Positions 26,045-63,888 of a stretch of DNA of 64,000 nucleotides are shown here, one piece after another; the first letter of the stretch is position 1; each line of letters begins with the position of its first letter. The notes below the pieces were generated by a model. The model was given only the letters and a program-made list of their open reading frames with translations. It was not told the DNA's origin and made no database searches. Location of the stretch: positions 186,001-250,000 of the forward strand of contig JAADJZ010000004.1 in assembly GCA_011032825.1 (NCBI GenBank), in the 5' to 3' direction. A program made the position numbers and the translations under genes. This DNA comes from Massariosphaeria phaeospora (taxonomy: Eukaryota; Ascomycota; Dothideomycetes; Pleosporales).

Positions 26045-28607
26045 ATGATGTCTACCATACATTACACTTATATCTTCCTCTTTTGCCTCAGTTTGTTTCT
26101 TTTGAACATTTCTATCGAAGCCGCACCTGCGTCTTACAGAATTGTCGATAACAATGGCATTCCTTCGAACTTGCCGAAGCGCCAAATCGCCAGCGAAACA
26201 GCGCCGCTGCCGCCGCCAGTTCAACCGTTACCTTCGATCTTAGTCCCTGGTGAGCCTGGGACTACTATCGTTGGTAGCGAGACTTCTGATGTACCACCGC
26301 CACCGCCTTTGCCGGTGAATACCAATCCTCCCCTATCTGAAAGCTCTGGAGTAATTCCTCCACCGCCTCCCCCGTCTGAAAGCTCTGGAGTACCACCGCC
26401 ACCGCCTCCCCCGTCTGAAAGCTCTGGAGTACCTCCACCTCCGCCACCCGCAGAGAATACTAATTCACCGCCACCGCCACCTCCCGACACCAATCCACCG
26501 CCGCCACCTCCAGATAACAATCCACCGCCACCTCCCGACACCAATCCACCGCCGCCACCTCCAGATAACAATCCACCGCCACCTCCCCCTGATAACAATC
26601 CACCGCCACCTCCCCCTGATAACAATCCACCGCCACCTCCCCCTGATAACAATCCACCGCCGCCTCCCCCAGACAACAATCCACCGCCGCCGCCTCCAGA
26701 TAACAATCCACCGCCACCTCCTCCAGACAACAATCCTCCGCCGCCTCCCCCAGACAACAATCCTCCGCCGCCACCTCCAGACACCAATCCACCACCTCCA
26801 CCTCCAGACACCAATCCACCACCTCCACCTCCAGACAACAGTCCACCGCCACCTCCAGAGCAGACAGGGCCGGCTCCTACACCTCCCCCGGGGCCTACTC
26901 CTACACCTCCACCAGAGCAGACCCCAAGTACTCCAGGAGAAGAATGCACTACCAAACAGGAATTCCCCACATGTACCACGCAGTTTTTCATCGTAACGTC
27001 CGTATTTCCAGATCAAGACTCAAGTACCACGTCCACGAGTACATCTACCAACTGCCACACCATCACAGCATGCACGGGCGTGGCAACAACTATTGCCACA
27101 ACGACTGCAAGAGCCACCACTATCGAGTCGTTCTGCGAGCGGGGAAAATGCGGGGGCAATGCCTGTTCAGCGAAGCCGAAACGAGCCGCCCTTCCCACCC
27201 CGGCACCGATTATTGGAGGTCTAACGATCTCAGACGAGACCTCGGAAGAACAGAACGCTACCCTTGTCCAGCGCGCCTTTACGGGAGGGACCGGTGACTG
27301 GGGCGACTTTTACAATGACGTGATAGGCCGCACGGCCGAACAAATTGAGGACAATGACAACTGGACAGTCCGCAAGGAAACTATCTTAGTCGACAATGAT
27401 GTGGAATTTATCCCAGGGCGCTCAGCCGCCGTGCATTTCCAAGCCTGGGGGGTAGAGCCCAGGAATGTGGTGATTCAGGATCTCTATGGCTGTGCTGCGC
27501 TTTTTTGCGTGTCTCACCTCGGTAAGTACACCGTCGGTTGATTTGGCGTGCCATGAGCGCGTCTCGAAAACTCTCCATGCTTACTACGACATCACTAGGA
27601 GTCGCTGTTGCACACTTCTGGGAAAAGCCGAGTCTCACGGAGAGATTGGAGGAAGAGGTTATGTATCCTTTACAGTGAGTACTTCCACCACTCGTTCGGT
27701 CGATCCAGAATACTGACTCGTCTTCAGAGAGTTGCTCGGCCACAAGTTCGCCCTATATAACTTTGGCCACGATCCTGTTTGTCATCTCATGGCCGGGGCA
27801 CGTAAAGTGATAGGCGGTAACGGGGCCGAAGAGCAAGAGACGCTTACCCAGCCATGGAAAGGCGACATCATGCGCCCCGAGGCAATCCAGAAGATTCGCG
27901 AGAAAGTCAAAACGATCCTACCTGACGCCACAATGAAGGATGCCTTCGTCTACGCCCGCCAAGTTAATGCAAAAGCGCGCGAAAGAGGGTATGGAAAAGG
28001 AGCAGTATGTATTTCCACAAATGTCTCCCGACCCGTGTGCTAATCAAGGTAACTTCAGGTGGTCTTCGAACCCAACAAAGACACGGGCAACGCCGTCGTC
28101 AAAGTGTACAACCAAGGCGTCGAAGTCGAGAAGATGGAATGGGTAAATCAAGAACTCCAGATCTGGCGAATGAACGCAGACGGTCCTAGTGGCGCGATCG
28201 CGAATGTGGTCCTCCAGACTGATAGGGACAATGTCCTAGATGCTTGCAAAGACGTCAAGACCCCAGTCAATAGTAATATGGCGGTGCGCCTAGGGTCTGA
28301 GAGTACGAGCGTTGGTGAGGCACTTAGCGAAGGCGGTAATCCTTACGACATGTCCTTCTCGATTAGGGACAAGAACAACAACAAAGTGGTGGAGAAGTGT
28401 GTTTTCAAAGGCGGGCCCTATGGCCGCTGGCAGGACGGCGCCCAAGCTGGTGTACTGGAATGCAAAGGCCGCACCATACGCTGTACGCGCCCCCAGGGCG
28501 ACGCGCCGGGCAAATCTTGCGACCCTGCAAATCCCCCGGATTGCGGCAAGCTGGGCGAGAAATGTTCCAAGGGCTACAACGAGCTTCTGGCAATATGCAA
28601 GAACTAG
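26045..28607 (+). CDS. Secreted proline-rich protein with unique C-terminal domain
   Basis: Exons 26045-27521, 27599-27674, 27728-28004 and 28059-28607 give 792 residues. The ATG at 26045 precedes a hydrophobic signal peptide (YIFLFCLSLFLLNISIEAAP); an in-frame ATG at 26015 only lengthens it. A KR site at about residue 47 could be a Kex2 cut. Residues about 85-275 are proline runs, first spaced by SESSG, then about 14 copies of PPPPPPDNN/DTN. A Thr/Ser-rich, Cys-containing linker follows. The folded-looking C-terminal part includes NVVIQDLYGCAALFCVSHLG, VAHFWEKPSLTERL and a Cys-rich end (CDPANPPDCGKLGEKCSKG). The VAHFWE-type domain recurs in fungal secreted proteins as I remember them, but I know no function. 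A cell-wall or surface role is plausible. Confidence 0.78.
26461..26846 (+). repeat. 27-bp coding minisatellite (PPPPPPDNN)
   Basis: Tandem units of about 24-27 bp (CCNCC-rich plus GATAACAAT or GACACCAAT) inside the proline-rich gene. The first and last units are the most diverged. Expected to be length-polymorphic. Confidence 0.85.
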
Positions 28608-35233: not shown

Positions 35234-37143
35234 CTACATCACAATACAGCAGCAGCCTCTCTTCTCCTTCACCTTCTCCGACTCCTGCTCGGCTGGTGGT
35301 TCCGGTAGTCGAGTCGGTTCTTCTCTAGAAGCTGCCGGTGGAGAGTGTCGCGATACCGAGTTACGCGAGTTGACGCGCGGGGTCTGTGGTATTGTTGGAG
35401 TCAATTTGTAACCGCCCTGTTCGTTGGTAGAAGCCTTGACGTTGCTATCGATGCGTTCTATGGCGGGCTTGGTAGGGCTCGGGAGAGGCCATTCATGATC
35501 TTCCTTGGCCTTCTCGATCTCTATCGGCTGGATTATTGAATTCCGCTTGTCCTCGAAATCTTCCGTGTTGAGTAATCGGAAGTCTGTGTCATACATGGAC
35601 CCAACTCTGCCCTCCTGCTCCCACTGCTGTTGCTGCATTCGCTTCGCATGCGTAGGAATAATTTGCTGGTCCGGAGGAAGTCGAGGATCAGGCTTATACA
35701 TATTCGCTATCCACGGTGCCTCCCCTTCTGGCCGGTGACTGGTAGTTGGTCGAGAGATAGAACCACCACTTGTCCCAGGACGTTTCATAGGCGATGTCGC
35801 AGAAGTGGTCCGCGGCTTTGACTGGCCTTTCTGTACGCCCACTTTCCTTCCGCCTGGAGCCGGCTTTCCGGGAGTCTTCGCCTTTGGGGGCGATCCGGTC
35901 ACCGGCGACGTAGGATTGCCAAAAGCAGCTTGTGAGGGTGTCCGAAGATGCTCATTGGAAGTTTCGAAATCATCTAACATGACCTGGCTAGAAATACTTC
36001 CGCTTCTTACTCGGGCTCCATTAGTAGCGATAGCATCCCCGCTCCAGTTGACGCTGCTCTTCCGTGATCTCGGAAGCGGGGCATCACGCTCTACAAATGT
36101 GGCGGGAACTGGCGCAGGACTTGTCTTCGCAACGGGGATACGAGATGTGCTGGGCCTGATGGTGTGGGTGTTCCGTACGGACCACTGTTCCCTTTCCGCT
36201 TGCTCATTATCTGCCGCAATTTCCTCAGGCGTCCGCAGGTCCCACTGGGGTTGCTCATATTCAGGCTCCTCTTCTTCAGCTGGAATCGGCGATATCGCTC
36301 GGCGAGTCTCCTGGCGCTCTTCTCCGTTGCTTGTAGGGTCGGTAGCTTCCGAGTTGGTACGATCTCTTCGGGCAGCACTCTGGGACCTGCTGTCGGACCG
36401 GCTCGCACGCCCAACTCGGAACCCTGCCTCTTCCATTTCCCGAATCTCGATCTCCTTGAGTTTGTCGCGGTGTATCCAGTTCTTCTCGTCCTTTTCGGCT
36501 TCAGTCCATACTTTGCCTTTTACTTTGCCATTCTTCTTGCCCTTGGCCACCGTGGGCTGGGAGACGTTCCTGCTGCCCGTCTTGCTCTCCACGCCATTAT
36601 AGTACTCGAGCACACTGTCTGGTTCACTGTTGGGGGTGCCGATGTCTCCGCTTGCCTTCCTGTGCAAGTCATTAACCCGGTTCGGAACGAGGTGCGGTTG
36701 TTCGTCAGGGCTGGAGCGGGGCGGCTTAGACATGCCATTTGGTTGAGAGGTGAGGGGTTGGCGGAGGGAGACGGGCTGCGCGGAGGGTACGTCTTCCGAC
36801 ATGAGAGGCTGGTGGTCTGCGTAGGAGGGTTTCTGTAGCACAACGGTATCAGTAAAGATGTCACCCTTCACATGTCGTGTCATGTGGACTGCTGGATGGC
36901 AGGTCTCCCAAGGGCGAGTCAAGTTAGTGGGCGCTACGGGCGGGAGCGGTGGACGTAGTGTCGATAGCGCGCACAAGTGACGACAGAGGCATGTGACGTT
37001 GCTGTTCGAAAAGAAATCAGTGTACGCACCGGATTGTTTAGAGGCACTGCAAGATCCCACGCGGTCTGCCCGCCGTGAGAGCTGCTCGGAGGTGTCAATT
37101 GCTGGGCGGTCGCTGGCGGCTGGCGGGGCGGTGCTACAGCCAT
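35234..37143 (-). CDS. teaR: TeaR/Mod5-like prenylated cell-end protein
   Basis: Probable cortical receptor for the cell-end marker TeaA, needed for polarised hyphal growth. Exons 37143-37030 and 36832-35234 give 570 residues. The first exon starts MAVAPPRQPPATAQQLTPP and joins phase 0 to KPSYADHQPLMSEDVP; the acceptor CTACAG is preceded by a branch-like CTGAT. Conserved stretches include WTEAEKDEKNWIHRDKLKEI, PQWDLRTPEEIAADN and APWIANMYKPDPRLPPDQQI. The protein ends GCCCIVM: CIVM is a farnesyl-type CaaX box, with two preceding cysteines able to be palmitoylated. TeaR and Mod5 are known to be CaaX-anchored. The name rests on remembered family features, not on a search. A 658-residue unspliced reading is less likely. 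Confidence 0.75.
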
Positions 37144-38384
37144 GGAAAGGTGCCCAGAGGCGTGCTCGCTCGACCAGAGAGTGCGCCACAAGCCGTGAGG
37201 GCGCGCGCACTACCGTGAGGCTGGAGAGGACACGCTCGGGATGCGCAATGGAGTGGTCGCTCTTGTTTCACAGCACCGGGAAGGGGCGAAGGCAAATGTC
37301 GAGAGCCGTCCTGTGCGCGTGGCAATGTCACTGGAAGGCGCCGCGGCGAGAGACAGAATGCAGCTCCTAGGTCGACACTCGCAGAAGGGCCATGGACGGC
37401 GGCGGAGTGTGCGAGGGGCGCCGAAGTGGAGACGGTAGATGCACTTGTTGGTCGCTGCCACGGTCGGATGCGTATCAATGGGAATCGTATCCAGGGCACC
37501 CTCGGCAGCGTGGTACCGAAAGGAGAGAAGAGAAGAGTAGCGACCGGCTGAGGCAACGCAGGCACGCGTGGGCAGCAGACCAGTCGTCTTCGTTTGGCCG
37601 TGTTCTGGACTGGAAGAAAATACTGTGACGGCGCTGGCGATGGGCGCGATAGATGCTTTTCCAACCCGTTGGCGCTTTGATTCGCGGCGTCCGTGCCAAG
37701 CTCCTCCTTGCCTAATCTGCCTCATCCGGACCAGCCTGGGCGACCAGGGAGACAAACAAAAAGCAAACGGCTGCTCGAGCTGGCACTGCGGTGCTGGCAA
37801 CGAGCAACAGCCAGCCCTGCAGCGCATCGCGTTTGCGGGGCAGAGCACCTGCTGATGATTCACCTCTGCATGCATACCCGCCGCTTGGGTCGCAGCACCA
37901 GCTCGAGAACCTCACCACCATGTCCGCCAACCACGCCCAATCACGAACCACGCGTATTGTGCACTGCATATCTCCCCTCCATGACAACGCATGGTCGTTT
38001 CCGTTCCGAGCATTGCACAACTACACCACACCAAGCTTTTCTGCATAAAACACCTTTCCGATGTCGCACCGCTTGGACACAGCGGGAACAGCGGGCCTCG
38101 TCCCGTGAAGCTTCCGCCGCCGCGATCCGAGGCCAGGGATCCGAGAACAGACGAGAAAGCAACACCTGGCATGGCAGATTACAGGCCAAACGTGTTTCCC
38201 AGCTTCCGGGCTTGGGGACGGAGATGACAGAATCCAGATGAGACCCACTAAATGCTCCATACTACATACTGCTATATATAGCGTCAGGCGCACTACACAT
38301 CTATAAGATGTTGGGATTTCCAACAACGCAGGCATCCTACGATTGTTTCACATATTTGTTGTCGTCGTTCCTCCAGAAGGTAAT
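37144..38384. other. Intergenic region, 1.2 kb
   Basis: 5' region of the TeaR-like gene and 3' flank of the ferric reductase gene. Many overlapping open frames reflect GC richness; none has a recognisable product. Confidence 0.55.
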
Positions 38385-46234: not shown

Positions 46235-49193
46235 TCACAACGGGAGTTTCGCGCTCAAGGGAAGCTTCCTCGACGAAGTGCCCACGTACACCGTCTTGGT
46301 GTAGTTGGTGATGACCCAGTTCTGAGAGACCGTGTCCCAGTTGGAGATGTCGCGGCGCGTAATGTCGGCGGTAAACGTCGTGCTCTGGCCCGGCTGGATA
46401 CTCAGGCGATCAAAGTTTCGCAGCACGACCTTGGGATCCTCAGGGCCTCCAAGGCTAATGTAGAGTTGGGCAACCTCATCACCAGGGATGGTGCCGTTGT
46501 TGGTGATGGTGGCTGTAGCGCTATAGAGTACGTCCCAGAGTCTAATAATAGTTAGCATTGTCGAACATGATGTATTACCACAGTACATACTGAGGATTGC
46601 CTCCAGGGGCGCCCCCAGCGGCGATTCGGGGCTGGGGCGACCCGTCTGTAGCGCCTTCGGGCAGTTCGACGTCCAGTCCATAATCACGATCATTGGAGGC
46701 TTCCTTGAGGTCGGTGGAGTTGAGATAGGGATAGATGTACTTGTTGACATAAGTCAAGTTCGCCGGCCATTGGTAGTCGGCGGGATTGGTGCTGTGGTTG
46801 CCGAGGACAGGCGCGGCCTTGGTGTTTCCCGTAGTCGGCGTGTATGGCCCAGCCGAGATCTTAGCAATGTTGAGGTTGGAGTAGGAGAATGTAGTGTATG
46901 ACAGTCCAAACCCAAATTCATAGATAGGCTCGATGTTGTTCTTGTCGAATGCCCTGTAGTCAATGAAGACCCCCTCCACGAAGTTATCCTGAGGACTCGC
47001 GCTTCCGTTGGTCGGCTCATAGATGAGATCGGCGACACCATAGTCGGAATACTGGCGACCGAAAGTGAAAGGTAGCTTGCCTCCAGGGTTCACACGGCCA
47101 TAAAGGACGTCGGCGATGGCGTTCCCGGACTCCTGACCGGGAAGACCAGCCCATATGATAGCAGTGATGTTCTCGCTCTCATAAAATGAATCGACGAGGA
47201 CGCCACCCACTGAATGGATTACGACAATGGTGTTATTGCAGTTAGCAGAGACATTGCGCACCAGCGTCTCACCGTCTTGCCAAATCGTAAGGTTGTTTCG
47301 GTCTCCGGCGTTGCCATCGACGTTGATATATCCCTCCCCAGAGTCTGCATTGACAAAGACGAGCGCGACGCTGGCCTGTTTAGCGAGAGCGGCAATTTGA
47401 CTGTAGGCCCAGTTGTCCGTAACAGATTGTATCACACCACCGTTGCTGGCGACCTGGCTCTTAATAGCCTCCAGCGGAGTGATGAGGTAGGGGAAGTCGG
47501 CAGTTCCTGATCCCCAGCCCATGGCAAGCGTACCGTTGTCGCATCCGCGGTCAGGGCACCCGTTTGGACCGTACTCATTCTCGGTAGCGTCGTTACCAAA
47601 GACGGCGGTGAATTTCTCGCGGCCCGTGAGAGGAAGGACGCCGCTGTTCTTGAGAAGAACAGTGGACTTAGCAGCAGCCTGTCTAATTGCGCGGAAATGT
47701 TCGCCTCGCACGTCGACTAGTTCGTTGATCAGACCATAGCCGTTGCCCGCAAATGAGTGCTCATTGCCGTACACATCGCGCGACCAGCTGTTGAAATTGG
47801 TGCCCGTAGGTGTAACATGCTTATCGCGACCAACATAGTAATAGGCAGCAAGAATTCGAGCAACCGCGTCATCTAGACGCCACGCCGGAACGGTGCCGTT
47901 GATAATGGAGAGTGTCAGGTTCGGTCCCCAGAAAGACAGGCCGCTATTGAAATCGGTATCACCAGGCATAGTCATATCAAGGCCGGCAAGAGTTGAGGCC
48001 ACACCAGAGTGCTGAGCGTCCCAGTCGGACAGAATGGCACCCTGAAAGCCTAGCTCGCCCTTTAGGATGTAGTTTTGAAGATATGAGTTCTGGCAAGCCT
48101 GGGAGTTGTTGTTCTTGTTGTACGAGCACATGATAGCGCCTGTGCCAGCACGAACGGCATCTGCGAAAGGCCACAGATATAGTTCGTGGAGGGTTTTGTC
48201 GTCGACGTTGGAGCTGATTGCGTCAACAAAGCCAGCATCCTCGAAGTTGCCGGGAGAACGGAAATGTTCCTGTTCGTTAAGGATGTAATGCTTAGTGCAG
48301 GCAATTACACCGGCATCTTGGATTCCACGAACGGTCTCGGCAACGGCGATACCGGAGAGTACGGGATCGGGACTGAAGCCTTCCCAGTTACGACCACCCT
48401 TAGGGCTGCGGCCAAGCGGACCAACGACGGGGCCGAGTAAGATGTCGATGCCCTTGCCAGCGAACTCTTCTCCCATCTGGTAGCCTCGACGGTAGAACTC
48501 GCCGCGGTCCCATGATGCAGCAATAGTGCCGCCAGCAGAGAACGCGGAGACGTAGTCGGCTAGAGTAGGTTAGTATATACAGTATTGGAAAACATAGCAA
48601 AGGGGTACACGCACCAAATCGGATACCGAGAGGGCTATCCTGCAGACACAGCGACGGAAAACCCAGGCGAGGCACCGCACCTGTATTGCCCACACTGAAT
48701 CATGCCGTCAGTCATATGTTTGTATACTAGCACAGAGCTTCTTACCATGCGTCGCTCTGCCATCCAGTACCAGTCGTGATGTTGACTTTCTCCAGCAGCG
48801 TCAGTTGGCGGACGAAGGCTTGGGCCTTGGTATAGGCTTCAGCCCAGCCAGGTGCCGTGCTGTCCATCCATGGGCTGGGATAGAAGGGAGGGCTGAATGC
48901 ATTGTCCAATTCGATGGGGTTGGTGGGGTTAGGAGTGGTGTTGTTTGAATACTTGTTTACAGTCAGCACAGCGCATAAACACAGCGCAAAACAGAAATTG
49001 GATTACATGGAGGAAGGGGAATAGGGCAAAAACGAAGTGCTTGAACCCAGAAGACATATGCAAAGCTTCTCAATCGCGCGTCATAACAGAATAGCGGATA
49101 TGTGGAGTAGAGTTGAGGATGGGGACGTACAGTAGGAGTGGTTTGCGCCGCCACTAGGGCGATCGCCAAAGATGCCGGAATAGGCCACAGCAT
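46235..49193 (-). CDS. bgl1: Secreted GH3 beta-glucosidase
   Basis: Hydrolyses cellobiose and short beta-glucosides outside the cell. Exons 49193-49131, 48951-48746, 48694-48615, 48559-46591 and 46541-46235 give 874 residues, close to Aspergillus BglA/Bgl1. The signal peptide is [17 protein letters not shown]. Landmarks are [57 protein letters not shown], the [17 protein letters not shown] loop, [12 protein letters not shown], and the catalytic nucleophile Asp (about residue 295) in [13 protein letters not shown]. The (alpha/beta)6 domain has [13 protein letters not shown] and [18 protein letters not shown]. The C-terminal fibronectin type III domain ends [14 protein letters not shown]. Splicing the second intron restores the conserved Cys (CVGNTG). 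Numerous NxS/T sites are present. XlnR upstream in the window is a plausible regulator, but no strong site was found near its start. Confidence 0.95.
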
Positions 49194-52576: not shown

Positions 52577-53083
52577 TTAGAGGAGCGGCTCGCCACCCGG
52601 TGAATTAGTACGCTCGCCTCGGCTCCATTTCTTCGACTCTCGCTTGCTGAACGGCCAGCAACCACGCATGCTCGTCTCCAGCCGCTTGTGAATAGGCTGT
52701 CGCGGGGCTGGGCGGTCCATCGCATGGGATAAGGTCAGCAGGCGCGGAATAGATAGTACGTGTTCCCAGAAATTGCGGCGGCCCTTCCGCGTTCCTTTTT
52801 GAGGGCTGCTATCACGCTCTTCGTTGATGCTCGTCAGTAGGCCCTGTGTCTCTGTCGGGCCCCTGCGTTCCACATCGTCGACCTTCGGGATGGCTCGCGC
52901 GCCGTTCGCTACCTCGCTCGGGCAGACGTTCAGGATTCCGCTGGCCTGGCGTTCGAGCCGCAGTTTTGGCGCGCGGTCGTCCCAGCCGTCGGGCGGTAGG
53001 ATGGCGGAGATGTGTTGACAATTACGTCTCAGATCGTCTAGCATCATTGGGTGTGGGAGTGGGCTGGTGGGTCTCGACTCCAT
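52577..53083 (-). CDS. Hypothetical protein, 168 residues
   Basis: Single exon from ATG 53083 (MESRPTSPLPHPMMLDDL). Hydrophilic, with a short hydrophobic segment (FWEHVLSIPRLLTLSHAM) and a basic C-terminus (WPFSKRESKKWSRGERT). No family was recognised. It ends GGEPLL, not a CaaX box, so it is probably outside the neighbouring cluster. It lies tail to tail with the membrane protein gene. Confidence 0.45.
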   Translation of the reverse strand: MESRPTSPLPHPMMLDDLRRNCQHISAILPPDGWDDRAPKLRLERQASGILNVCPSEVANGARAIPKVDDVERRGPTETQGLLTSINEERDSSPQKGTRKGRRNFWEHVLSIPRLLTLSHAMDRPAPRQPIHKRLETSMRGCWPFSKRESKKWSRGERTNSPGGEPLL

Positions 53084-53631: not shown

Positions 53632-54270
53632 CTACATCACCACACAGCAGCACCACTTTTCCTGTCCTCCACCACCTCCACTACCCCTCTCCACCGGCCT
53701 CAAATCCGAGACCCTACGCCTCTGCTCCGCCAACTCCTCTACCCCGGTCACCCTGTCGAAAGGGCCCTCTTCAGCCTTGCGGAAGCCAAGCAGATTCTTC
53801 TTCTTGCGCTCCATGTGGTCGCGGCCCGGGGTAGAGAAGATGGGTTTCTTGGCGGGCGAAGCGAATTCGCGGAGCTCGATCTGCTCACCTCCGGCGGAGG
53901 GTGTTGCGGGGCCGCTGATGCGGACTGGCGTGAAGGGTTCTTGAGAGTTAACATTAATAGCGATGGTGGTGGTGCGAAGTATAATAAGGGGGGAGTTTGC
54001 CGAAGCAGATCGGTGGCAGCAGCGACGAGAGCAAGAAGCATAGAGAACGAAAGGAAATTTGGAGGTGAAAGTGAAAGGCAAATGGGGGAACCGCTTACGG
54101 TGGCTTTGACGTTCTGCCGGATTGAAACCGGAGTACTTTAGCGGGGTTGCGGGCGGCGAGGGAGTGACTTGGCGGATCGAGGCGCGCTGGCTGATGGCGC
54201 TCATGGGGCGGACTGGGGTCGTGGGCGCGCGACGCGTTGGAGAGGCGGGTGGGACGAAGGTGGTTGCCAT
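53632..54270 (-). CDS. CaaX-tailed small protein 1 (CVVM)
   Basis: Exons 54270-54099 and 53939-53632 give 159 residues. The donor GTAAGC and acceptor CTCAAG leave a 159-bp intron, which is divisible by three and stop-free, so an unspliced 212-residue form is possible. The body is Pro/Thr/Ser-rich (TTFVPPASPTRRAPTTPVRP) with ASPAKKPIFSTPGRD and a charged helix (FDRVTGVEELAEQRRR). It ends GGGGGQEKWCCCVVM: CVVM is a farnesyl-type CaaX box with two extra cysteines for palmitoylation. No catalytic domain is visible. It is the downstream-most member of a head-to-tail minus-strand series. Confidence 0.7.
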   Translation of the reverse strand: MATTFVPPASPTRRAPTTPVRPMSAISQRASIRQVTPSPPATPLKYSGFNPAERQSHRKRFPHLPFTFTSKFPFVLYASCSRRCCHRSASANSPLIILRTTTIAINVNSQEPFTPVRISGPATPSAGGEQIELREFASPAKKPIFSTPGRDHMERKKKNLLGFRKAEEGPFDRVTGVEELAEQRRRVSDLRPVERGSGGGGGQEKWCCCVVM

Positions 54271-55030
54271 TGTTGTAGTAATTTGGCTTGGAGGAGTGTG
54301 TCTGGTGGTATGGTGGTGTCGCTATGTCGCCCGTACGTAAAGAGCTCGACCGGTCGTTGCTGTATGTCGAAAAGCTGGATGCGGCTCGTCGTTCACGACG
54401 GCACGGATGGGTTGCTGGAAATCGGAAGCTGGGGGCGACTTTCGCAGATGGAAAAGCCTATATCGATCGTGGAGCGTAGAGGACGGCCGAAGAAACAGAA
54501 GGAGGGCGCGGGGCGGGGAGGACTTTATACGTCGCTTGTTGTGGGCGCGGGGCCTGTTGCGGTGGTGAATACGTTTTGGTCGGAGGGGAAAAATTAGATG
54601 CCGTTGCGTAGACAACCGGCGACATCGGCGGTGAAGAGGGGAAAACCGAGAGTGAATCATTCTTGACATGTGCACTGACTTCATGTACGTATTGCATGTT
54701 TCTTTAACGGCTTTATGCTAACTTAACATCATGGCTATTGCATACATGCTCTACAGGAAAACGTTTTACTCTTGTAGACTTATGGCTTTCCCTTCTTGGG
54801 TTGTTAGTGGATCCGACTTATTCACTGTTCACCGCTAAGGTCGAGATTGACAAACGGGCACTTGACGATGCTGACTGGCCAAAGGAAAGGGTATCGTATG
54901 ACTAACTAATATGTATGTACATGCTTGCTCGAAGATCAGAAGCTATCTATGGAAAGAGTGACGGTGTCGAGAACAGAAAGAAAGGAAGAAAGCAAGAAAT
55001 CCAAAAGCACGCCGCATTATCTGTCCACCG
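54271..55030. other. Intergenic region within the CaaX cluster
   Basis: 760 bp; promoter of CaaX gene 1. No TGAGTC motif was found within 430 bp upstream of its ATG. Confidence 0.5.
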
Positions 55031-55441
55031 CTAGCTCACCACACACCCATACCCACAGAAACTACAGTTCCTTTTCGAATCACCTCTCTCTTCAGTCACC
55101 GACCCAGCATCCGCGACCTGTGACTGCGCCGAGGCCTCCGTCTGATCATCAATATCTCCCTCGTCCGACGGGAAATCATGCCCACTCGACCCGGTCGTTG
55201 CTTGGTCGGACGCGATGCGGTTTTGGGTTCCCTTCTTTTTGTTGTTTGTGCATCCTGGATCGTGCTGCTTCCTGGACCGCGGAGTGCTTGGAGTGGCGGA
55301 TATCTTCTGTGTCTTGCTTGAACTCGCGGTCGGTTCGTCGCCCGGATCTTGACCGGCGCGTGCTTCGGTGCTGTCGGAGCGCTGCTTCCCCTTTGCCGTG
55401 TTGCGGGTCGATAGTTTGATCTTGGAGCTTTCTCCTGCCAT
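55031..55441 (-). CDS. CaaX-tailed small protein 2 (CVVS)
   Basis: 136 residues from MAGESSKIKLSTRN (ATG 55441); the frame is open further upstream, but that part looks untranslated. Very hydrophilic: KGKQRSDSTEARAGQD, SATPSTPRSRKQHD, and an acidic SDEGDIDDQTEASAQS. It ends NCSFCGYGCVVS, a CaaX box with Ser at the last position (farnesyl-type) plus two nearby cysteines. A TGAGTC (reverse GACTCA, 55798-55803) lies 357 bp upstream. No known family. Disordered body and lipid tail match its neighbours. Confidence 0.6.
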   Translation of the reverse strand: MAGESSKIKLSTRNTAKGKQRSDSTEARAGQDPGDEPTASSSKTQKISATPSTPRSRKQHDPGCTNNKKKGTQNRIASDQATTGSSGHDFPSDEGDIDDQTEASAQSQVADAGSVTEERGDSKRNCSFCGYGCVVS

Positions 55442-56251
55442 GTCTTCGTTGAGGGAGTGGTATGTATGTCTGAGGGTTTGATGTAAAGAGTCTGGGAGTG
55501 GTTTGGGGTAAGATGTCGATTTGTATTTGGTATTGGCTTGATGTGTTCGAATGTATGTTCGTACTCGGAAGTCTGCTGATACGTGGTGTAGGAAGGAAAG
55601 AGGAGGAGGTGCTGGCGGAGTGCTTTCTATTGCTGTATGGCTCATATAACGCTCGAGTCGAACGTTGGACACGTCGAGAATGAGTGTATCGATGGCTCAT
55701 CTGTTTCAACTATGTGTCTAGTTCGTACAGTCAAGAGTCATGATTCAGATCGAGGAGCGACATGAATCTGAGTGGCCGCTTCTTTGTCATATCCTCGGAC
55801 TCAGGCGCTTCATCATTTGCATTATCATTGTACACTCAATGTCATCGACTGAGGCAAAAAGGGGCCGGTACAGTCTGTAAGTTTATTTCGGCGGGAAAAT
55901 CTCAGAGAACAAAGGTAAAGCATCGAACCGATTTCATAGTCAAGACGCTCGCATTCAACCTATCTACACCCTCTAAGCCATTACATCCTCCCAATTACCC
56001 AGGCTAATATTACAAAAACAGTACACAAAAAGATCCCTAACTCAAACTCCGAAACTCCTGGACAAAGGAAATGATCATTACTCCAACCTCCTCAGACAAC
56101 CGTGCTCTAGGATCTCCAACCTGACTCCCTCCATTGATGTCGACAAAGGTGATTGGACTTGGTCTCGGCCTTGCGCTGATGAAGACTCCGACTTCTCCCT
56201 CTGGTAACTCCCAGTTTGTCCGCATCGGACTGGAAGACTTGTTGCAACGTA
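55442..56251. other. Intergenic region within the CaaX cluster
   Basis: 810 bp, including a frame near 56037-56225 (GVFISARPRPSPITFVDING) that may be a 3' exon of the next gene. Confidence 0.4.
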
Positions 56252-56620
56252 TTAATGTTTGCGGTTCGTCGTACTTGGCTCGGAGTCATCTTTTGGCTTC
56301 CGTTTTATGTTTCCCTTGATCGCATTGACGATGGGATATTTGGGGACGGCAATCAGCGTCGGTATGTTTTTGTTGGATCCTGTAGTCGTGTCAAGATAGT
56401 TTGGTTCAGATTCGTCTGCTTGGCCCTCCATGCTGTCGGCCATGCTGCCATGCTCAGCGTTCACGCTGTCGGGGCTATCTTCTTTGGCATTGTCGCGAAC
56501 GGTTAAGGGCATGGGCTTCTCCGGGGTGTTCTGCCCGCCCTGACTGCTTGTTTCGACGTCCAGGCTATCGGGGCTGCCTTCTTTGCCTTTGCCTTCGCCG
56601 ATAGGGTTCTTGTCGGCCAT
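56252..56620 (-). CDS. Small acidic protein of the CaaX cluster, no CaaX seen
   Basis: 122 residues from ATG 56620: MADKNPIGEGKGKEGSPDSL. It is Glu/Asp/Ser-rich with an internal echo (EGSPDSLDVE and EDSPDSVNAEH). The end, NRKH, is not a CaaX box, but a GTACGAC donor-like string just before it and open frames down to 56037 suggest an additional 3' exon; two alternative continuations are open and I cannot choose. TGAGTCG lies 341 bp upstream (56961-56967). No family. Confidence 0.5.
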   Translation of the reverse strand: MADKNPIGEGKGKEGSPDSLDVETSSQGGQNTPEKPMPLTVRDNAKEDSPDSVNAEHGSMADSMEGQADESEPNYLDTTTGSNKNIPTLIAVPKYPIVNAIKGNIKRKPKDDSEPSTTNRKH

Positions 56621-57048
56621 GTCGAAGTTTCTTGGCTGGGTGAAGGATGTAGTGTGGGCTTCGAGGAAGAGATATGCGGACGAAGATGATTGGAGTTTGG
56701 TAAAGAGCTGATTTGATAGTCGTGGAAAGTTGCTGGAAGATACGCGGATGAAGATGATGAAAGTTTGGCAAAGAGTTGATTCGATGGATACGGAAAGATG
56801 TTGATCGTGGTGCAGTGTAGGAAGAAGAGTTATGCTGCAACGGACCGTACTTTATATGGCTATATGGGTCATAGATATGGCTCTGACACTGAGGTGTGTC
56901 AGAGATGAGTATGCGGAAGTGTGAGTGTTTCTCGATTGACTCCTTATGACAAACCTGCTCTGAGTCGCTCATAGTATGACAGTACTTCATCAAGCATTCG
57001 AGTAATAACATTGTGTCCAGTCAACAGATCTCGTCATCTCTCTTCCCC
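56621..57048. other. Intergenic region within the CaaX cluster
   Basis: 428 bp, with TGAGTCG at 56961-56967 and TGACTCC at 56937-56943. Confidence 0.5.
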
Positions 57049-57375
57049 TTACCGGCACCAGCACCACCAGCACCAGACTCCCTCCTTCGGCACATCATAC
57101 ACCGACATCGCTTCACTCTCAACACTGTTCCTCGCCCTCCCTGCGTCAGAAGTCTGAGCTATGTTCTGGGGCTCGTATCTAATCATGTCTCCTACTTTAG
57201 GCTGTAAAACTAAATCAGTATGCGATTGTCGAAACGTATGGTTCCCGTGTGCGGTGCCGAGTTTGCCGAACGTAAATGCTCGGTCTTCTTCGTCGGTTAG
57301 GGGTCGCGGGCTTTGGGGTTCGAGTTCGGGGGTGGGGATTCTGATTGGTGTGCCGTGTTGTTTGGAGGATCCCAT
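57049..57375 (-). CDS. Small protein with N-myristoylation-like start and Cys/Trp tail
   Basis: 108 residues. MGSSKQHGTP fits the N-myristoylation pattern (Gly2, small residue at 6-7). The middle, PTPELEPQSPRPLTDEEDRA and FTFGKLGTAHGNH, is polar. It ends GVWCWWCWCR, four cysteine/tryptophan alternations from a TGG/TGC run, next to a stop; such a tail could be palmitoylated but is not a canonical CaaX box. A GTAAGG overlaps the stop, so a further exon is possible though none fits. It sits within the CaaX series and shares its size and strand. Confidence 0.5.
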   Translation of the reverse strand: MGSSKQHGTPIRIPTPELEPQSPRPLTDEEDRAFTFGKLGTAHGNHTFRQSHTDLVLQPKVGDMIRYEPQNIAQTSDAGRARNSVESEAMSVYDVPKEGVWCWWCWCR

Positions 57376-57729
57376 GGTGGTGCGCAGCGTCCCTGGGATT
57401 CTCGAGCGGGGTTCCTGAGAGCTTGGTAGGGTGAGGTCTTATAGAAATGTCTGTTGTGTGTTAACAGTGGTGCGTGTACAAGAAGAAGTGGTAGATTATC
57501 GCTCACATTTACCCGTCACAATGCTAATTCAAACTGTAGTCGTATACAGACAACATTGGAGACTTCCCCTGATTAATTAGTCACCATAGATGACCGCAGA
57601 TCTTGCCCTGTCACAACAAGTTATCCATACACCCATCACATACACCTCGGTCCACGTTCATCGACCGGTACTAATCATTACCACAAGTCACCCCCTCCCC
57701 TTCTCGACGCCTCCGTCATTCTGCTCCCC
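57376..57729. other. Intergenic region within the CaaX cluster
   Basis: 354 bp; no distinct motif seen. Confidence 0.45.
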
Positions 57730-57978
57730 TCACATAACCACGCAATCTAAGCTACAGCCTCCACCGCCACCGCTGCAGTCTGCGCAGCAGCAACCGTCCC
57801 TACAGCTGCAGTCTCCACCCCCTCCGGAACCATTTGACCCGTTGTTGCTGCCCGAGTCACCCGCTCCTCCAGAACCTCCAGCACCTCCCTCGTTGCCTCC
57901 TGAAGTGTTCGGTGCCATTGTCATAGTTTCTCCTGTGTATCCACCACCCTGAGTGAATTGGGAGTTTGGGCTCTGCAT
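57730..57978 (-). CDS. CaaX-tailed Gly/Cys-rich small protein 3 (CVVM)
   Basis: 82 residues from the only in-frame ATG at 57978: MQSPNSQFTQGGGYTGETM. A Gly/Ser/Asn-rich middle (GGAGGSGGAGDSGSNNGSN) leads to a cysteine cluster: DCSCRDGCCCADCS, then GGGGGCSLDCVVM. Nine cysteines lie in the last 27 residues before and within the CaaX box. Possible roles of the cluster are multiple palmitoylation or metal binding (inference). ATGAGTCG at 58358-58365 and TGACTCA at 58346-58352 lie about 370-390 bp upstream. No family known to me. Confidence 0.6.
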   Translation of the reverse strand: MQSPNSQFTQGGGYTGETMTMAPNTSGGNEGGAGGSGGAGDSGSNNGSNGSGGGGDCSCRDGCCCADCSGGGGGCSLDCVVM

Positions 57979-58592
57979 CTCGATGGCGATGAAGGTCTCG
58001 GGTTGTGATCTCGAGATCTTGAGGGGTAGTGTGGTGATGACTGTGTTTGATCGAGGTCGTGCTGAGGCGTTAGTGAGTGTGTACGCGACGGAATTGAATG
58101 TGTGGTAATTATAGGTATCGTACTTGTGTTTATGTGGTGGTGATCGTGTGTAGATGGTAGCTCTATGCAAGCGGTGATGACTGCATGCGGACTGTGATGA
58201 TTATGTGTAGGCCGTGATTTGCAGCTGCGATGACCTTGTATTCGAATACTCGAGGAACCGTGGAGTGAAGAACCAGTAGAGAAGCTTGAGGTGTGAAAGT
58301 AGGTGTCTGCCTACGTGACGACTTACTCATTGTGCGCGACAGCATTGACTCACATAGATGAGTCGAGGTCAGTGCAGTAGTACAGCACCATGCCATTGGA
58401 CTCACTCAGTGCACGGTCGCGCCGCACCTTTCGAAAGACACGTAGAGATCTAGATATGAAAACAAATACAGAAATATAACAGACCAACTAATACAAACAT
58501 AACAAGAAAACAGTAAGACTGAGAAAAGAGATAAGAAAGTCGCCTATAACTGCCACCACAACAGCAGGCCAGATTAATACACCACTCCTCCA
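57979..58592. other. Intergenic region with paired TGA(C/G)TC motifs
   Basis: 614 bp. TGACTCA at 58346-58352 and ATGAGTCG at 58358-58365 lie five bases apart; a further GGACTCACT lies near 58397. Confidence 0.5.
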
Positions 58593-58835
58593 TCACATAA
58601 CTGTACATGCTGAGTCCTCCTTCGGATCATTCTTGTAGTCGTCCAGCACATCTGGAATATATTCTCTCGGGTATTTTACCTCTGGCGCTGTAGCGCGTCT
58701 CGCACCTACTCGCTCCCAAGCCCTCGCCTTCTGTTCTGAGTCCTCACTCGCGACTTTAAGGGTCGAGGCCTCAGTATTGGTGGCTTTCGACGGCGCTGAC
58801 TTTTGATCCATAACGGAAGGATCCTGTATCTGCAT
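58593..58835 (-). CDS. CaaX-tailed small protein 4 (CTVM)
   Basis: 80 residues, start MQIQDPSVMDQKSAPSK (a second ATG eight codons later is possible). Highly polar and Lys/Glu-rich (VASEDSEQKARAWERVGARR), then PREYIPDVLDDYKNDPKEDS and ACTVM. CTVM is a CaaX box with Met. There is only one Cys, so a second lipid would need the Lys/Arg patches instead. ATGAGTCG is 392 bp upstream (59227-59234). Confidence 0.55.
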   Translation of the reverse strand: MQIQDPSVMDQKSAPSKATNTEASTLKVASEDSEQKARAWERVGARRATAPEVKYPREYIPDVLDDYKNDPKEDSACTVM

Positions 58836-59478
58836 TAGTTTCCTGTCTATCTGGGAACACTATCACTCATTGACTGTGTGCTTGTTGATGGTTTTCGAAG
58901 TGTGGGCGGCTTTGATAATCCTGATCGATTGCAGAGACGGACTTGCTGGAGTGACGTTTCTGGTTTCTGGTTTGTGTTGTTTCTTGATCGAGGTACGAGT
59001 TGTGGGCGAGCAAGGTTCGGGGCCGGTTCGATATTGAGGAAGTCGGCGTTGTGCAGTGGAGAATAGCTTTGTGTAGAGATTGGCTTTGTAACAGGCTCTC
59101 CCGTACGTAGTATTGAAATGTGAAGGTTGCTGGCGACCCGAGTTCGTGAGTTATGTGTGTGTGAAGGAGAAGAAGTGTGATGGAGGGACCGTAGTAGTCT
59201 ATACTTATACGTTAGCTCAAGTCTCAATGAGTCGCACATTAAAAGTCAACATACCTAGTCTGACCAACACACGCGTACAAGAGTCAGTGAGTTTAGACTC
59301 AACACATAGCTAAATCATCGCCATTCACGCAGAGACGTAGAAAATGCAGGCCGTTGTAAAAGTTCAGAAACGACTGAATGATAAGTAATGATAAGAAATG
59401 GAAATACAAAGTCCCCAATAACGCCCGAACAATAACCACCCAAACCCTCCCTAACCACAAAGAAATCCTAACCCGCCG
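58836..59478. other. Intergenic region within the CaaX cluster
   Basis: 643 bp, with TGAGTCGCACA from 59228. Confidence 0.5.
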
Positions 59479-59997
59479 TTATAGTATCACACAGCAACTA
59501 CTTGAACTCTTCTTGCTCTGATATGTAGACGCGGGAGGCTGAGAAGGAGCCATTCCGCAGGTACTGTCGCAGTGAGGAGAACCCCCAAGTTCGCCGGGAC
59601 CAACATTCGAAAAGACCATCGGCGGTGGAGTCGGTGGAGTCGGTGGAGGCGGTGGAGGAGCTATTCCATAGGTACTATCGAGGTTGGGAAATTGCCCAAG
59701 TTCATCTACCTGCCGGACATTCGGACTCAAGGATGTCGATTCGGCCGTTGCCGAGAGAGTAGTTTATAGCTCTGAGTTATTATACTGTTTGGACTAGCAA
59801 TATATCAAAGACTGACTATGGGTTCGCTTGCGAGAGGTTCCTTCACTACGTGCCTTCTGGCGATCACCCGGGCGTTCCAGAGCAGACACATGACGCTTCG
59901 GATAATGCGTCATTTCCCGAATTTCCAGAATTTCTTCAGTCTTCAATTGGCGAGACTGGAGAGACTTTCTTGGAATTGTCTGAGTTTGGTGAAACAT
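59479..59997 (-). CDS. CaaX-tailed small protein 5 (CVIL), tentative two-exon model
   Basis: The C-terminal frame from about 59705 is convincing: GQFPNLDSTYGIAPPPPPP and a diverged second copy GGSPHCDSTCGMAPSQPP, then SKKSSSSCCVIL. CVIL (Leu last) is a geranylgeranyl-type CaaX box. It has no usable in-frame ATG. A model with exon 1 59997-59817 (MFHQTQTIPRKSLQSRQ...) spliced by a GTCAGT donor to an acceptor at 59707-59706 keeps phase and gives 135 residues. The 5' exon is unproven; the 3' frame is better supported. TGAGTCGCACA lies 256 bp upstream of the proposed ATG. Confidence 0.4.
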
Positions 59998-60360
59998 CGG
60001 TGTTGATAGGGGTCAACATGATGGTTCTTAGGGTGAATGATGAGGATAGCGATTTGTAGATGAGGTTTGGAGGGCGGCTCGATGTCGATGTAAATGTCGG
60101 TGTAGTTGACTTTGTCCACTGATGTCGAATCCGTACGTTGAAATATATCCGCCGTAGAAATCTATCCTTTAAATCGTTGTTAATGAAGAAGAAGTAAATG
60201 TAATGCAGAGCGAGAAGATACGAATTTTATATCTGGTATGAGCCATATCCCAATGAGTCGCACACTGACTCAACACACCACACGAAGTAGTCACCCACTT
60301 GACTTGACTCCACCACTTCACCAAGTCATCCCCACCAACAGCACCAATCCGCCGAAACAC
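59998..60360. other. Intergenic region within the CaaX cluster
   Basis: 363 bp, with ATGAGTCG at 60253-60260 and TGACTCA at 60266-60272. Confidence 0.5.
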
Positions 60361-61269
60361 TCACATAACCACACAATAACAACATCCCCCGTCCCCGTGC
60401 ACCGGCCCCTCGAACTGCATATCCGGATACACAGCTCTTGCCTCATCCCGCAGCTCTTCAACGAAACTATTCCGCTTCTTCCCCGTATCGTCCGGCCGCC
60501 CCAGTATAAACGCCTTATTCTCAGTCTCTATGCGCTCTCGTAGCGCGAGACAACTCTTGCGCGCATCGCCTCTGTTTCTCCTCTGGCGCTCTAGTTCTTC
60601 CATGCCACCCCATGGAGCTGGCCGCGGGCCGTTTGTGATCGGCAACATCTGCTCGAAGTAGTCTCGGTGTTCCTGTACTGGAGTTGGGTATGAGTAGGGT
60701 AATGGCTGGGAGCTTATCCGAGCTTGCATCCTGGTGGTGTCTGCTTCGTATGTGGCGTGGACGTCGGCATACTGCTTGAGGGGTTGCGGCCAACTCGCGA
60801 TTTCCACAGATGCGCCTTCACCGGGCTCATATCTCATGTAGTATTCTTGCGATTGAGCTTGTTGGTCGAGCCTGTGTTCGTTCGACTCTGGTATGCACGG
60901 GTCCGGATTGTGGAATACTATCGGCGAGGGAGGTCGCGCATCATAGTTGACTGAAAGACTGCCATGCGCAGATTCAGGAGTGGGCGAAGCAGGTGGTGAA
61001 AGAAATCGGACCGTGCGGGCGGACTTTATCGGCTCCGGAGTGGTTGTTGGGATCTGTTCGTATGCGTCAGGGTTCGAGGAAACTGGCGTATAAGGTGCAT
61101 TTCGAACTGGAACCGGGCGCCTCCTCGGTATATCACCACTCTGAACCTGTGTTTGTACCCAAGTTATTTCTTCAATTTGCGACCCTGCAGCGTATCCCAT
61201 CGATGCATGGTTCCCTTGTATTCCCCCAATTGCCTCTTTCGGAATCGGTGGCAGGGGATGTTGAAACAT
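60361..61269 (-). CDS. CaaX-tailed protein 6 (CVVM), 302 residues
   Basis: Single exon, ATG 61269 (MFQHPLPPIPKEAIGG). The longest cluster member. It is disordered and Pro-rich early (TPVSSNPDAYEQIPTTTPEP, ARTVRFLSPPASPTPESAH), then has a probable helix (MEELERQRRNRGDARKSCLA, LRERIETENKAFILGR). The end, GDGGCCYCVVM, combines a CVVM CaaX box with two palmitoylatable cysteines. The VRFLSPPASPTP segment is a likely phosphosite-rich region. An ATGAGTC (61655-61661) lies about 386 bp upstream, inside an 84-bp tandem duplication. No family recognised. Confidence 0.7.
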   Translation of the reverse strand: MFQHPLPPIPKEAIGGIQGNHASMGYAAGSQIEEITWVQTQVQSGDIPRRRPVPVRNAPYTPVSSNPDAYEQIPTTTPEPIKSARTVRFLSPPASPTPESAHGSLSVNYDARPPSPIVFHNPDPCIPESNEHRLDQQAQSQEYYMRYEPGEGASVEIASWPQPLKQYADVHATYEADTTRMQARISSQPLPYSYPTPVQEHRDYFEQMLPITNGPRPAPWGGMEELERQRRNRGDARKSCLALRERIETENKAFILGRPDDTGKKRNSFVEELRDEARAVYPDMQFEGPVHGDGGCCYCVVM

Positions 61270-62183: not shown

Positions 62184-63888
62184 TTATATGCCTGCAACAG
62201 CATTGAAATCGAATATGCCTCTCCTGAGGCCTTGCTCATACTCCCACACGAAGTCGCCCTGGAACCCGCTCTCGCGTATCCTCTTCAGCACCCAAAGCTC
62301 AACGCTCCCGATCTTGTTAGCTTTCCCAACGGATTCTGTTTGACGGCCTTCGAAAAATATGTAGGCATCGCGGTACCCCACTTTCCAGCCGTTCTCATAT
62401 CGCCAATGTTCGCACGGTGTATTCGGGGTCAAGTGATCCCAGTAGGCGACATGATGATGTACAGCATCATACATACGCTCGTCGCGGCGGTGGTTTGCTC
62501 GCTCAAGCAGCGTGTAGATGTTGGAGGCTGGGACTCTGGAGGATATAGGTGTAACGAGAGATCCCGACATCGCATCACTTTGGGCTTGAAAACCCCATTC
62601 CCCCCCAGGGAGCCAATCCATTTTCCAGGTCCAGAAGAAGGCACCACCAGTTCTCGCCTGGTATCGTCGGCTCTGCGCTTGGCCAAATTGCTTGACGAGG
62701 TCGATTTTAGGTGTGTCGCCGGACTTGCTCCACGAGTCTTCAGCGAGAGTGACGGAATACTCTCCAACAATGGCTTGCACAGCGCCGCGGTCGATGACAG
62801 AGCCTTCCTTGCCGTCGAGTTCGGTGAGCTTGGTGTTGACTTCAGCAATGATTTCCTGTGGAGACTTTTGCTTGTCGGCATCGGAGAACGCCCAGTAGTA
62901 ATGAGTGTCTATGATGACGGGGCAGGTAGGTTGTGAGGGGTATGCGACGTTCTTCTTGAGGCTGTATTCGACTGCTCGTGACAGGTTCCATGCATCGGAG
63001 ATGATAAGCGGAATCGAAGGGTCGATAGCAGAAACAGTGTCAATACACTCATCATACCAGTCATACATGCGATCTGATTCCCAGTCCGCTTCGTTCACGA
63101 TCTGGATACCCGTCACCTGTAGACCTGACTTGATCTCATTGGCGAGGAACTGGCAACAACGGACACCAAGATCCCGATTTGGAGCGGATTTCCAAAGGCT
63201 AGCGGTGCTACTGTTGGTTCCGGAATGATCACCGCAATTGGCGCCACCAGGGAGAGCGTGAAGGTCGAGGAGGACGCCGATGTTGTGGGCGCGAAGGCGG
63301 GAGATCAGTGTACGGATGGTTGGCCAGGCTGCAAGATAGACGTGCACGTAAGGTTCGAAAGGTGTGTTTTCTGTAAAGGACGGAAGATCGAAATAACCGA
63401 TGGGCAGTCGTATCGTCGTACCTAGCAACGGTTAGAACGGTGCTGTATGACGAAGTTCTTGGAACCCAAATACATTTTGCTTGCTTGACTAGCCAGTCGA
63501 TGTCGTTGTCTGACACGGCATGCTCCCAGTGCTCTTCAAACTTCTCCTTGGTGGCCTCGAGTCCGATGTTCGCCACCCATCCTTTGACAGACTCCAGTTC
63601 ACTAGATCCGGAGGTGTCGTCAGGAAACATGGATGGATGCAGCCATCGTTCCAGCACGTAGATAGAGCCAAGGTTCGTTCCGTGGTGATATCGGTAGCGA
63701 AGGATGTCAATGGCCGAAGGGTCTTGAATAGTGGAAGGCTGATCGAGCGTCATACCGCGGAAGTGGTGTTGTTGCTGACCAGGTAAGTAGCTTGGGCGAA
63801 GATGCTGAGCTGCTGGATGGGTCGTTGGTGTGTTGTCGTCGACGATCTTGCCAAGCTCGGCTTTGGCTTTCTTGTAGAGTCCCTTCAT
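62184..63888 (-). CDS. GH5 glucan 1,3-beta-glucosidase-like protein
   Basis: Exons 63888-63474 and 63421-62184 (52-bp intron) give 550 residues. The protein begins MKGLYKKAKAELGKIV without a signal peptide, so it is probably intracellular or unconventionally secreted. It has GTNLGSIYVLERWLHPSMF and DIDWLVKQAKCTTIRLPIGY, where splicing restores the Cys, plus LLDLHALPGGANCGDHSG. The expected acid/base Glu is about residue 249 in QIVNEADW, and the nucleophile Glu about 359 in AIVGEYSVTL. Aromatic substrate residues lie in GGAFFWTWKMDW. The tail (about 430-550) is an extra C-terminal region with AYIFFEGRQTESVGKANKIG and VWEYEQGLRRGIFDF, longer than secreted ExgA enzymes. The substrate is inferred only. 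Confidence 0.88.

Follow-up and report, generated by a model that had tools for sequence, protein, structure and literature searches.

The best-known fungal CaaX proteins comprise small GTPases and pheromones, together with some regulators, and they are encoded at scattered places in the genome. The box is a C-terminal C-a-a-X with an aliphatic a2 and an X acceptable to farnesyltransferase (FTase) or geranylgeranyltransferase-I (GGTase-I). Small genes with such a box are ordinary: the accessible text of a study of seven Leotiomycetes gives, per genome, 2 to 12 proteins that have a CaaX or CPaX end and at most 100 amino acids (aa) (PMC10569646), so it is clustering that is the unusual part. Among the regulators, Neurospora crassa CSR-3 is a large Sel1-repeat protein with a CVVM box and, in the portion of the source available to us, its Cys-to-Ser exchange leads to less accumulation at the fusion point and more lysis at halved calcium (PMC12561907). 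Here we describe a cluster of CaaX-type genes in a 64,000-nucleotide (nt) stretch of the 51-contig genome of Massariosphaeria phaeospora, a member of the Pleosporales (positions 186001–250000 of contig C34, hereafter the window). The minus strand of the window carries, between 53632 and 61269, six open reading frames (ORFs) with CaaX-type ends and two interspersed ones without, named G1 to G8 from the highest coordinates to the lowest (Table 1). On slightly better than even terms, we read this locus as a cluster of small orphan genes, specific to the species or its lineage and each transcribed on its own, with disordered products that would be tethered to membranes on their cytosolic side.

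The CaaX endings and their clustering

An earlier note on this DNA had listed eight minus-strand ORFs, six of them ending in CVVM, CVVS, CVVM, CTVM, CVIL or CVVM, and we recover the same coordinates and the same ends. These are canonical CaaX boxes, as had been proposed: the C-terminal C-a-a-X is present in six of the eight ORFs, with V or I at a2 in all six and M, S or L at X. The extra cysteines said to precede most of the boxes are also there, five of the six genes having one or two additional Cys within the 11 residues before the box (G3 has none). By the CaaX rule the Leu at the end of G2 is presumably of the geranylgeranyl type. Inspection of the sequence by eye found no splicing that would give G5 or G6 a CaaX end; as a guess, the Trp/Cys tail of G5 could be S-acylated.

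Could such a cluster have arisen by chance? The pattern TGYRYNRTNATGTRR (C-[VITAM]-[VIM]-M with a stop or TGG after it), chosen post hoc after the endings were known, has 102 matches in the 42.08 Mb genome as against 127 for a backwards control, and since the control exceeds the real pattern most of the genome-wide matches must be due to chance. Among the 100 of these 102 places that were listed, four lie on a single strand within 6.7 kb (C34:239632–246375). A fifth C34 match, at C34:221234 and 18 kb from the cluster, is the end of a 677-aa ORF, and true stop codons terminate all five. The Poisson probability of the four clustered Met-endings is 1.8e-10 at the observed rate and 4.4e-10 at the control rate or, corrected for the number of such stretches in the genome, 2.3e-6 and 5.5e-6. 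A count based on ORFs of at least 40 aa, covering 104 kb, leads to the same result: ends of the form C[VITASLCM][VIL][MSQACLFI] are found in 6 of 48 ORFs on the minus strand of the cluster and in 4 of 1555 others (Fisher P = 1e-7). When 20 of the 100 listed C[VITAM][VIM]M places were picked by hand and their ends read, many proved to be in short, probably chance frames. The cluster of CaaX endings thus far exceeds the chance expectation and is non-random, and the earlier judgement that chance was a very unlikely origin holds.

The 677-aa frame (35234–37267 of the window, minus strand) adds a further CaaX-type end, KRGCCCIVM. Elsewhere in the genome, and with names given by eye, CVVM also ends a Ras-like exon (CCGCVVM), an Smr-like ORF and others. 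Three places with CaaX-type ends, all on the minus strand, may be singled out: L005 (C15 near 191541), a frame with a stretch that looks Smr-like by eye and the end KSCCVVM; L008 (C48 near 808436), whose Cys pairs resemble, again by eye, a small zinc-binding protein and which ends in GGSCCVVM; and L033 (C45 near 2105993), where a short frame rich in Cys has the end CGEECDCCGCDESCWCVVM and might, as a guess by eye, encode a metallothionein-like peptide with a CaaX end.

A non-random cluster of tails could also be the product of copying, one ancestral CaaX tail having been locally duplicated onto unrelated sequences that share no function. The tail codons are indeed alike, the first Val being GTG in 5/5 and the Cys TGT in 5/6 (11 long ORFs of the window have 310 Val codons, 75 of them GTG, and 46 Cys codons, 15 of them TGT); moreover, the ends of G7 and G8 are 86% identical over 21 nt and the regions upstream of G2 and G3 have CGACTCATTG in common. 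However, these shared stretches are too short to prove homology, and GTG is frequent in CVVM ends elsewhere as well, for example in the Ras-like exon and the L005 and L008 frames. We regard such copying as very improbable.

Table 1. Minus-strand ORFs of the CaaX cluster and the elements upstream of them (positions in the window)
Feature	Position	Strand	Description
G1	60361..61269	-	302-aa ORF (5' end provisional), end GGCCYCVVM
G2	59479..59763	-	3' coding part; ATG at 59619 gives 46 aa, frame open for 94 aa, end SSSSCCVIL
G3	58593..58835	-	80-aa ORF, end DSACTVM
G4	57730..57978	-	82-aa Gly/Cys-rich ORF, 8 Cys, end CSLDCVVM
G5	57049..57375	-	108-aa ORF, end WCWWCWCR, without CaaX
G6	56252..56620	-	122-aa ORF, end TTNRKH, without CaaX
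G7	55031..55441	-	136 aa (ORF to 55645; likely ATG 55441), end KRNCSFCGYGCVVS, i.e. CGYGCVVS
G8	53632..54270	-	159 aa after intron removal, end WCCCVVM
G2 upstream element	60226..60260	-	CGACTCATTG...TATAAA (G2 start assumed at 60019)
G3 upstream element	59204..59234	-	CGACTCATTG...TATAAG
G4 upstream motif	58359..58365	-	CGACTCA; no TATA-like box by regular expression within 500 nt
G6 upstream motif	56961..56967	-	CGACTCA; TATAAA begins 111 nt onward
G7 upstream motif	55654..55660	-	CGACTCG; TATATG begins 12 nt onward

Protein bodies and gene models

The bodies of these proteins are unlike one another, as the earlier note had maintained. When G1 to G8 and a ninth ORF, G9 (52577–53083), were aligned with each other, no pair scored above all 100 shuffles (the top pairs, G1–G8 and G2–G9, were matched by 3 of 100), which gives no support to a simple tandem paralog family. 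Disorder-promoting residues abound in the bodies (in G1 to G9, 53–65% of positions are A, E, G, K, P, Q, R or S), and under the preferred reading they would be intrinsically disordered proteins. Pfam at E 0.1 assigned no family to any of the ten sequences scanned (G1–G9 and the 677-aa ORF). A search for homologs, limited to G1, G3 and G8 and dependent on shared 5-residue words so that distant relatives may escape it, returned only hypothetical own-species proteins for G1 and G8 and nothing at E 10 for G3. Within the genome itself, G1, G7 and G8 have, besides themselves, only weak matches (E 0.045, 0.21 and 0.022, respectively), and the three loci concerned contain no CaaX-ending ORF of at least 40 aa. 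Elsewhere in the window, an open frame on the plus strand (26006–27541) has a long run of PPPPPPDNN-type repeats and no Pfam family. The interval that contains the cluster is bordered by a GH3 gene (46575–48569) on one side and a 415-aa frame (62184–63431) on the other.

The gene models are less certain than had been claimed. That of G8 agrees with a public spliced model, BDV95DRAFT_664961 (159 aa), with a 159-nt intron at about 53940–54098. A second public model, BDV95DRAFT_602876, takes the G1 body minus its CVVM and splices it, across an intron of ~1.6 kb and skipping G2, to the CTVM end of G3; this fusion may be a prediction artefact or mis-annotation, or else an alternative last exon. G2, for its part, probably has additional coding sequence (an upstream exon) beyond the 46-aa part. 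It contains two diverged 69-nt repeats, 72% alike, at 59524–59703, reading ELG..P..DST.G.AP; their spacing of 111 nt puts them in frame.

The fusion model raises the question of whether the locus is made up of only one or two transcription units, in which alternative last exons swap the CaaX tails. Such a scheme has the splicing of G1 to the G3 tail on its side, together with the AG acceptor-like sites seen by eye ahead of the G2 and G3 tails. It must nevertheless be reconciled with the CGACTC motif and TATA-like box that precede G2, G3, G6 and G7, with the ATG that G3, G4 and G7 each have of their own and with the in-frame CVVM that G1 already carries; it also needs an intron of ~1.6 kb, whereas that of G8 has 159 nt. 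We think it quite improbable.

To what extent are these ORFs genes at all? When each frame was ranked among the six by a codon score based on the codon frequencies of 11 long window ORFs, the ORF's own frame came first for G1, G2 (as a 94-codon frame), G3, G5, G6, G7 and G8, that is, in 7 of 8, and the CaaX frame was top in five of the six CaaX genes, G2 again being scored as 94 codons. The locus could consist mostly of non-genes or decaying genes with CaaX ends that are due to chance or are remnants, as might be argued from codon scores that are low in absolute terms, the weak G4 frame, the failure to find foreign homologs of G1, G3 and G8, and public proteins at the three searched loci that comprise a spliced gene and a fusion. 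Against it stand the corrected genome-wide probability of the endings, the rank of the own frame in seven of eight ORFs and the promoter-like anatomy upstream, and this alternative seems to us rather improbable.

A possible common regulation and capacity for prenylation

We have examined the 500 nt upstream of the nine genes G1–G9. The motif CGACTC(A/G) is present in five of them (G2, G3, G4, G6 and G7) and a TATA-like box in seven (all except G1 and G4); in four (G2, G3, G6 and G7) the motif is followed within 120 nt by the box. In GC-matched background windows (random, overlapping and drawn from about 92 kb surrounding the cluster) this motif pair occurs in 0 of 3000, the first motif in 245 and the TATA-like box in 961; in windows without GC matching the pair occurs in 12 of 2000. 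The arrangement suggests a common regulation of several genes of the cluster. Motif, box and tail might even form a promoter-and-tail cassette that joins unrelated, young, disordered bodies, the locus being one that generates new prenyl-anchored proteins; its products would be a co-expressed set, either membrane-tethered or secreted and lipidated, with a possible role in polymorphic recognition or signalling. We consider this extended interpretation unlikely.

With respect to the enzymes that prenylation requires, the protein-prenyltransferase domain PF00432 is found at three loci of the genome, presumably FTase, GGTase-I and RabGGTase. The Cn of CnFTase we take to be the fungus Cryptococcus neoformans. 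Crystals of CnFTase together with a CVVM peptide have been obtained, according to the available part of the source (PMC11121372).

Under the preferred reading, several cluster genes would be switched on jointly via their CGACTC–TATA promoters and their products synthesised in the cytosol, where FTase would act on the Cys of the CVVM, CVVS and CTVM ends and GGTase-I on that of CVIL (the endings being observed, their modification presumed). Removal of the aaX residues and methylation of the Cys would follow; then, in five of the six proteins, S-acylation of the neighbouring Cys would hold the product at the plasma membrane or endomembranes. The bodies would differ as new or fast-evolving tethers or adaptors, while shared regulation and selection on the tail would keep the set together. 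A membrane tether is suggested by the motif, the enzymes and the clustering; all that lies downstream of these we infer.

A number of observations weigh against this reading. The promoter motif was picked after inspecting the cluster, so the enrichment figures overstate the case. A plain count by strand and length gives it a modest excess (5 observed, 1.6 expected, P = 0.024). Over the whole genome, CGACTCA-N10-35-TATAAR has fewer matches than its backwards control (25 versus 49); only the two in-cluster matches of the 25, which are 1 kb apart, extend as CGACTCATTG, and a CaaX-like frame lies within 1.5 kb of 1 of the 23 outside. CGACTC(A/G) was not found in the 500 nt upstream of G1, G5 and G8. 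The co-regulation proposed in the earlier note therefore stands in part: the shared promoter-like element fits it, but the motif is post hoc and its plain enrichment slight. As to the genes themselves, the G4 frame and the 46-codon part of G2 rank second of six in codon score, and the public annotation makes a single gene of G1 and G3. Disorder of the bodies is only weakly indicated by AlphaFold2, whose mean pLDDT from the single sequence is 57 for G8 and 41 for G1, such low confidence without an alignment being weak evidence. Finally, the ICMT family PF04140 has one locus in the genome, but the family turns up in 5 of 14 control genomes too, each of the five a prokaryote, so a single match is no proof of a CaaX methyltransferase.

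Pheromones and other described CaaX systems

The cluster, or at least G7, might instead encode precursors of secreted, prenylated a-factor-like pheromones that are cut near the tail and exported, serving in mate or self recognition. In basidiomycetes several pheromone precursors are arranged side by side, which is in keeping with such a role. In the accessible text of one source, the a-type and h-type precursors of ascomycetes have C-terminal CaaX boxes, CVIM and C(S/T)VM among them (PMC3068285), and three of the ORFs here (G2, G3 and G4) are below 100 aa. In the G7 tail, KRNCSFCGYGCVVS (55031–55078), Gly-Tyr precedes the box and a KR pair stands 12 residues from the C-terminus, features that are named for precursors in the available parts of two papers (PMC10569646, PMC3068285). 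The 2023 paper further states, in the part at hand, that, up to its own candidate from a Leotiomycete, no a-factor had been identified in classes other than the Sordariomycetes (PMC10569646).

On the other hand, three of the six products exceed 100 aa, while a-factor is described, in the portion of the source available, as shorter than that (PMC10569646). Gly-Tyr is found within the last 15 residues of G7 alone, and internal CaaX-like copies are found in none of the six genes. KR or RR pairs are present in four of the six CaaX genes, and G7 alone has one within 15 residues of the end. No gene of the six combines the two a-type features, a length below 100 aa and a Gly-Tyr near the end. The h-type motif (L/I)GC(S/T)VM, which in the accessible text defines that type by three copies with Kex2 sites (PMC3068285), is absent from all six. 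A Tyr-Cys pattern search of the genome for a-factor gave 12 matches versus 5 for the control, and of the 8 that were read (one of them G1) none was convincing. The receptors and mating genes are elsewhere: there is one STE3 gene on C11 (its matches being two neighbouring stretches of one locus, and none lying beside the cluster), one STE2 gene on C30, and MAT-alpha-box matches on C17 and C8. None of these own-genome matches is on C34, and a mating locus is accordingly rejected. We thus hold the pheromone interpretation of the cluster to be unlikely. G7, although long at 136 aa, is the most plausible precursor of the set; its Kex2-like pair and Gly-Tyr give the pheromone interpretation added weight and take some from the preferred one. 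The cluster also offers a-type pheromone candidates, G7 first, outside the Sordariomycetes, and the gap described in the available part of the 2023 paper would presumably extend to the Dothideomycetes (PMC10569646).

If the preferred reading of membrane-anchored orphan proteins is true, it would suggest that lipid-anchored proteins can arise and be co-regulated locally, and those described here are candidates for lineage-specific membrane functions. For the terms searched, the papers listed in the open library included no described cluster of unrelated orphan CaaX genes, and comparison has to be made with single features of known systems. Ras-type small GTPases have a similarly Cys-rich CaaX C-terminus, but Pfam recognises no GTPase domain in the cluster proteins. 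The CaaX chitin synthase regulators, Neurospora CSR-3 and yeast Skt5, are likewise non-GTPase fungal CaaX proteins, and CSR-3 shares the CVVM box; it is, however, large and made of Sel1 repeats, a domain that Pfam does not find here. The pheromone/receptor (B mating-type) loci of basidiomycetes also have adjacent CaaX precursors, whereas here the host is an ascomycete, the contig has no STE3 match and the bodies reach 302 aa. The ascomycete a- and h-type precursors (mfa-1, PPG2, hpp1) likewise come from small genes and carry a CaaX box at the C-terminus, and G7 resembles them further in its KR pair and Gly-Tyr near the end. As far as the available parts of the sources go, those precursors are below 100 aa and the h-type has three CaaX-like copies (PMC10569646, PMC3068285). 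The present locus differs in having six unlike genes, three of them above 100 aa, with no internal copies and no match to a receptor or mating gene on the contig; judged by the literature searched, unrelated orphan CaaX genes packed this densely and sharing a promoter element would represent an arrangement new to ascomycetes.

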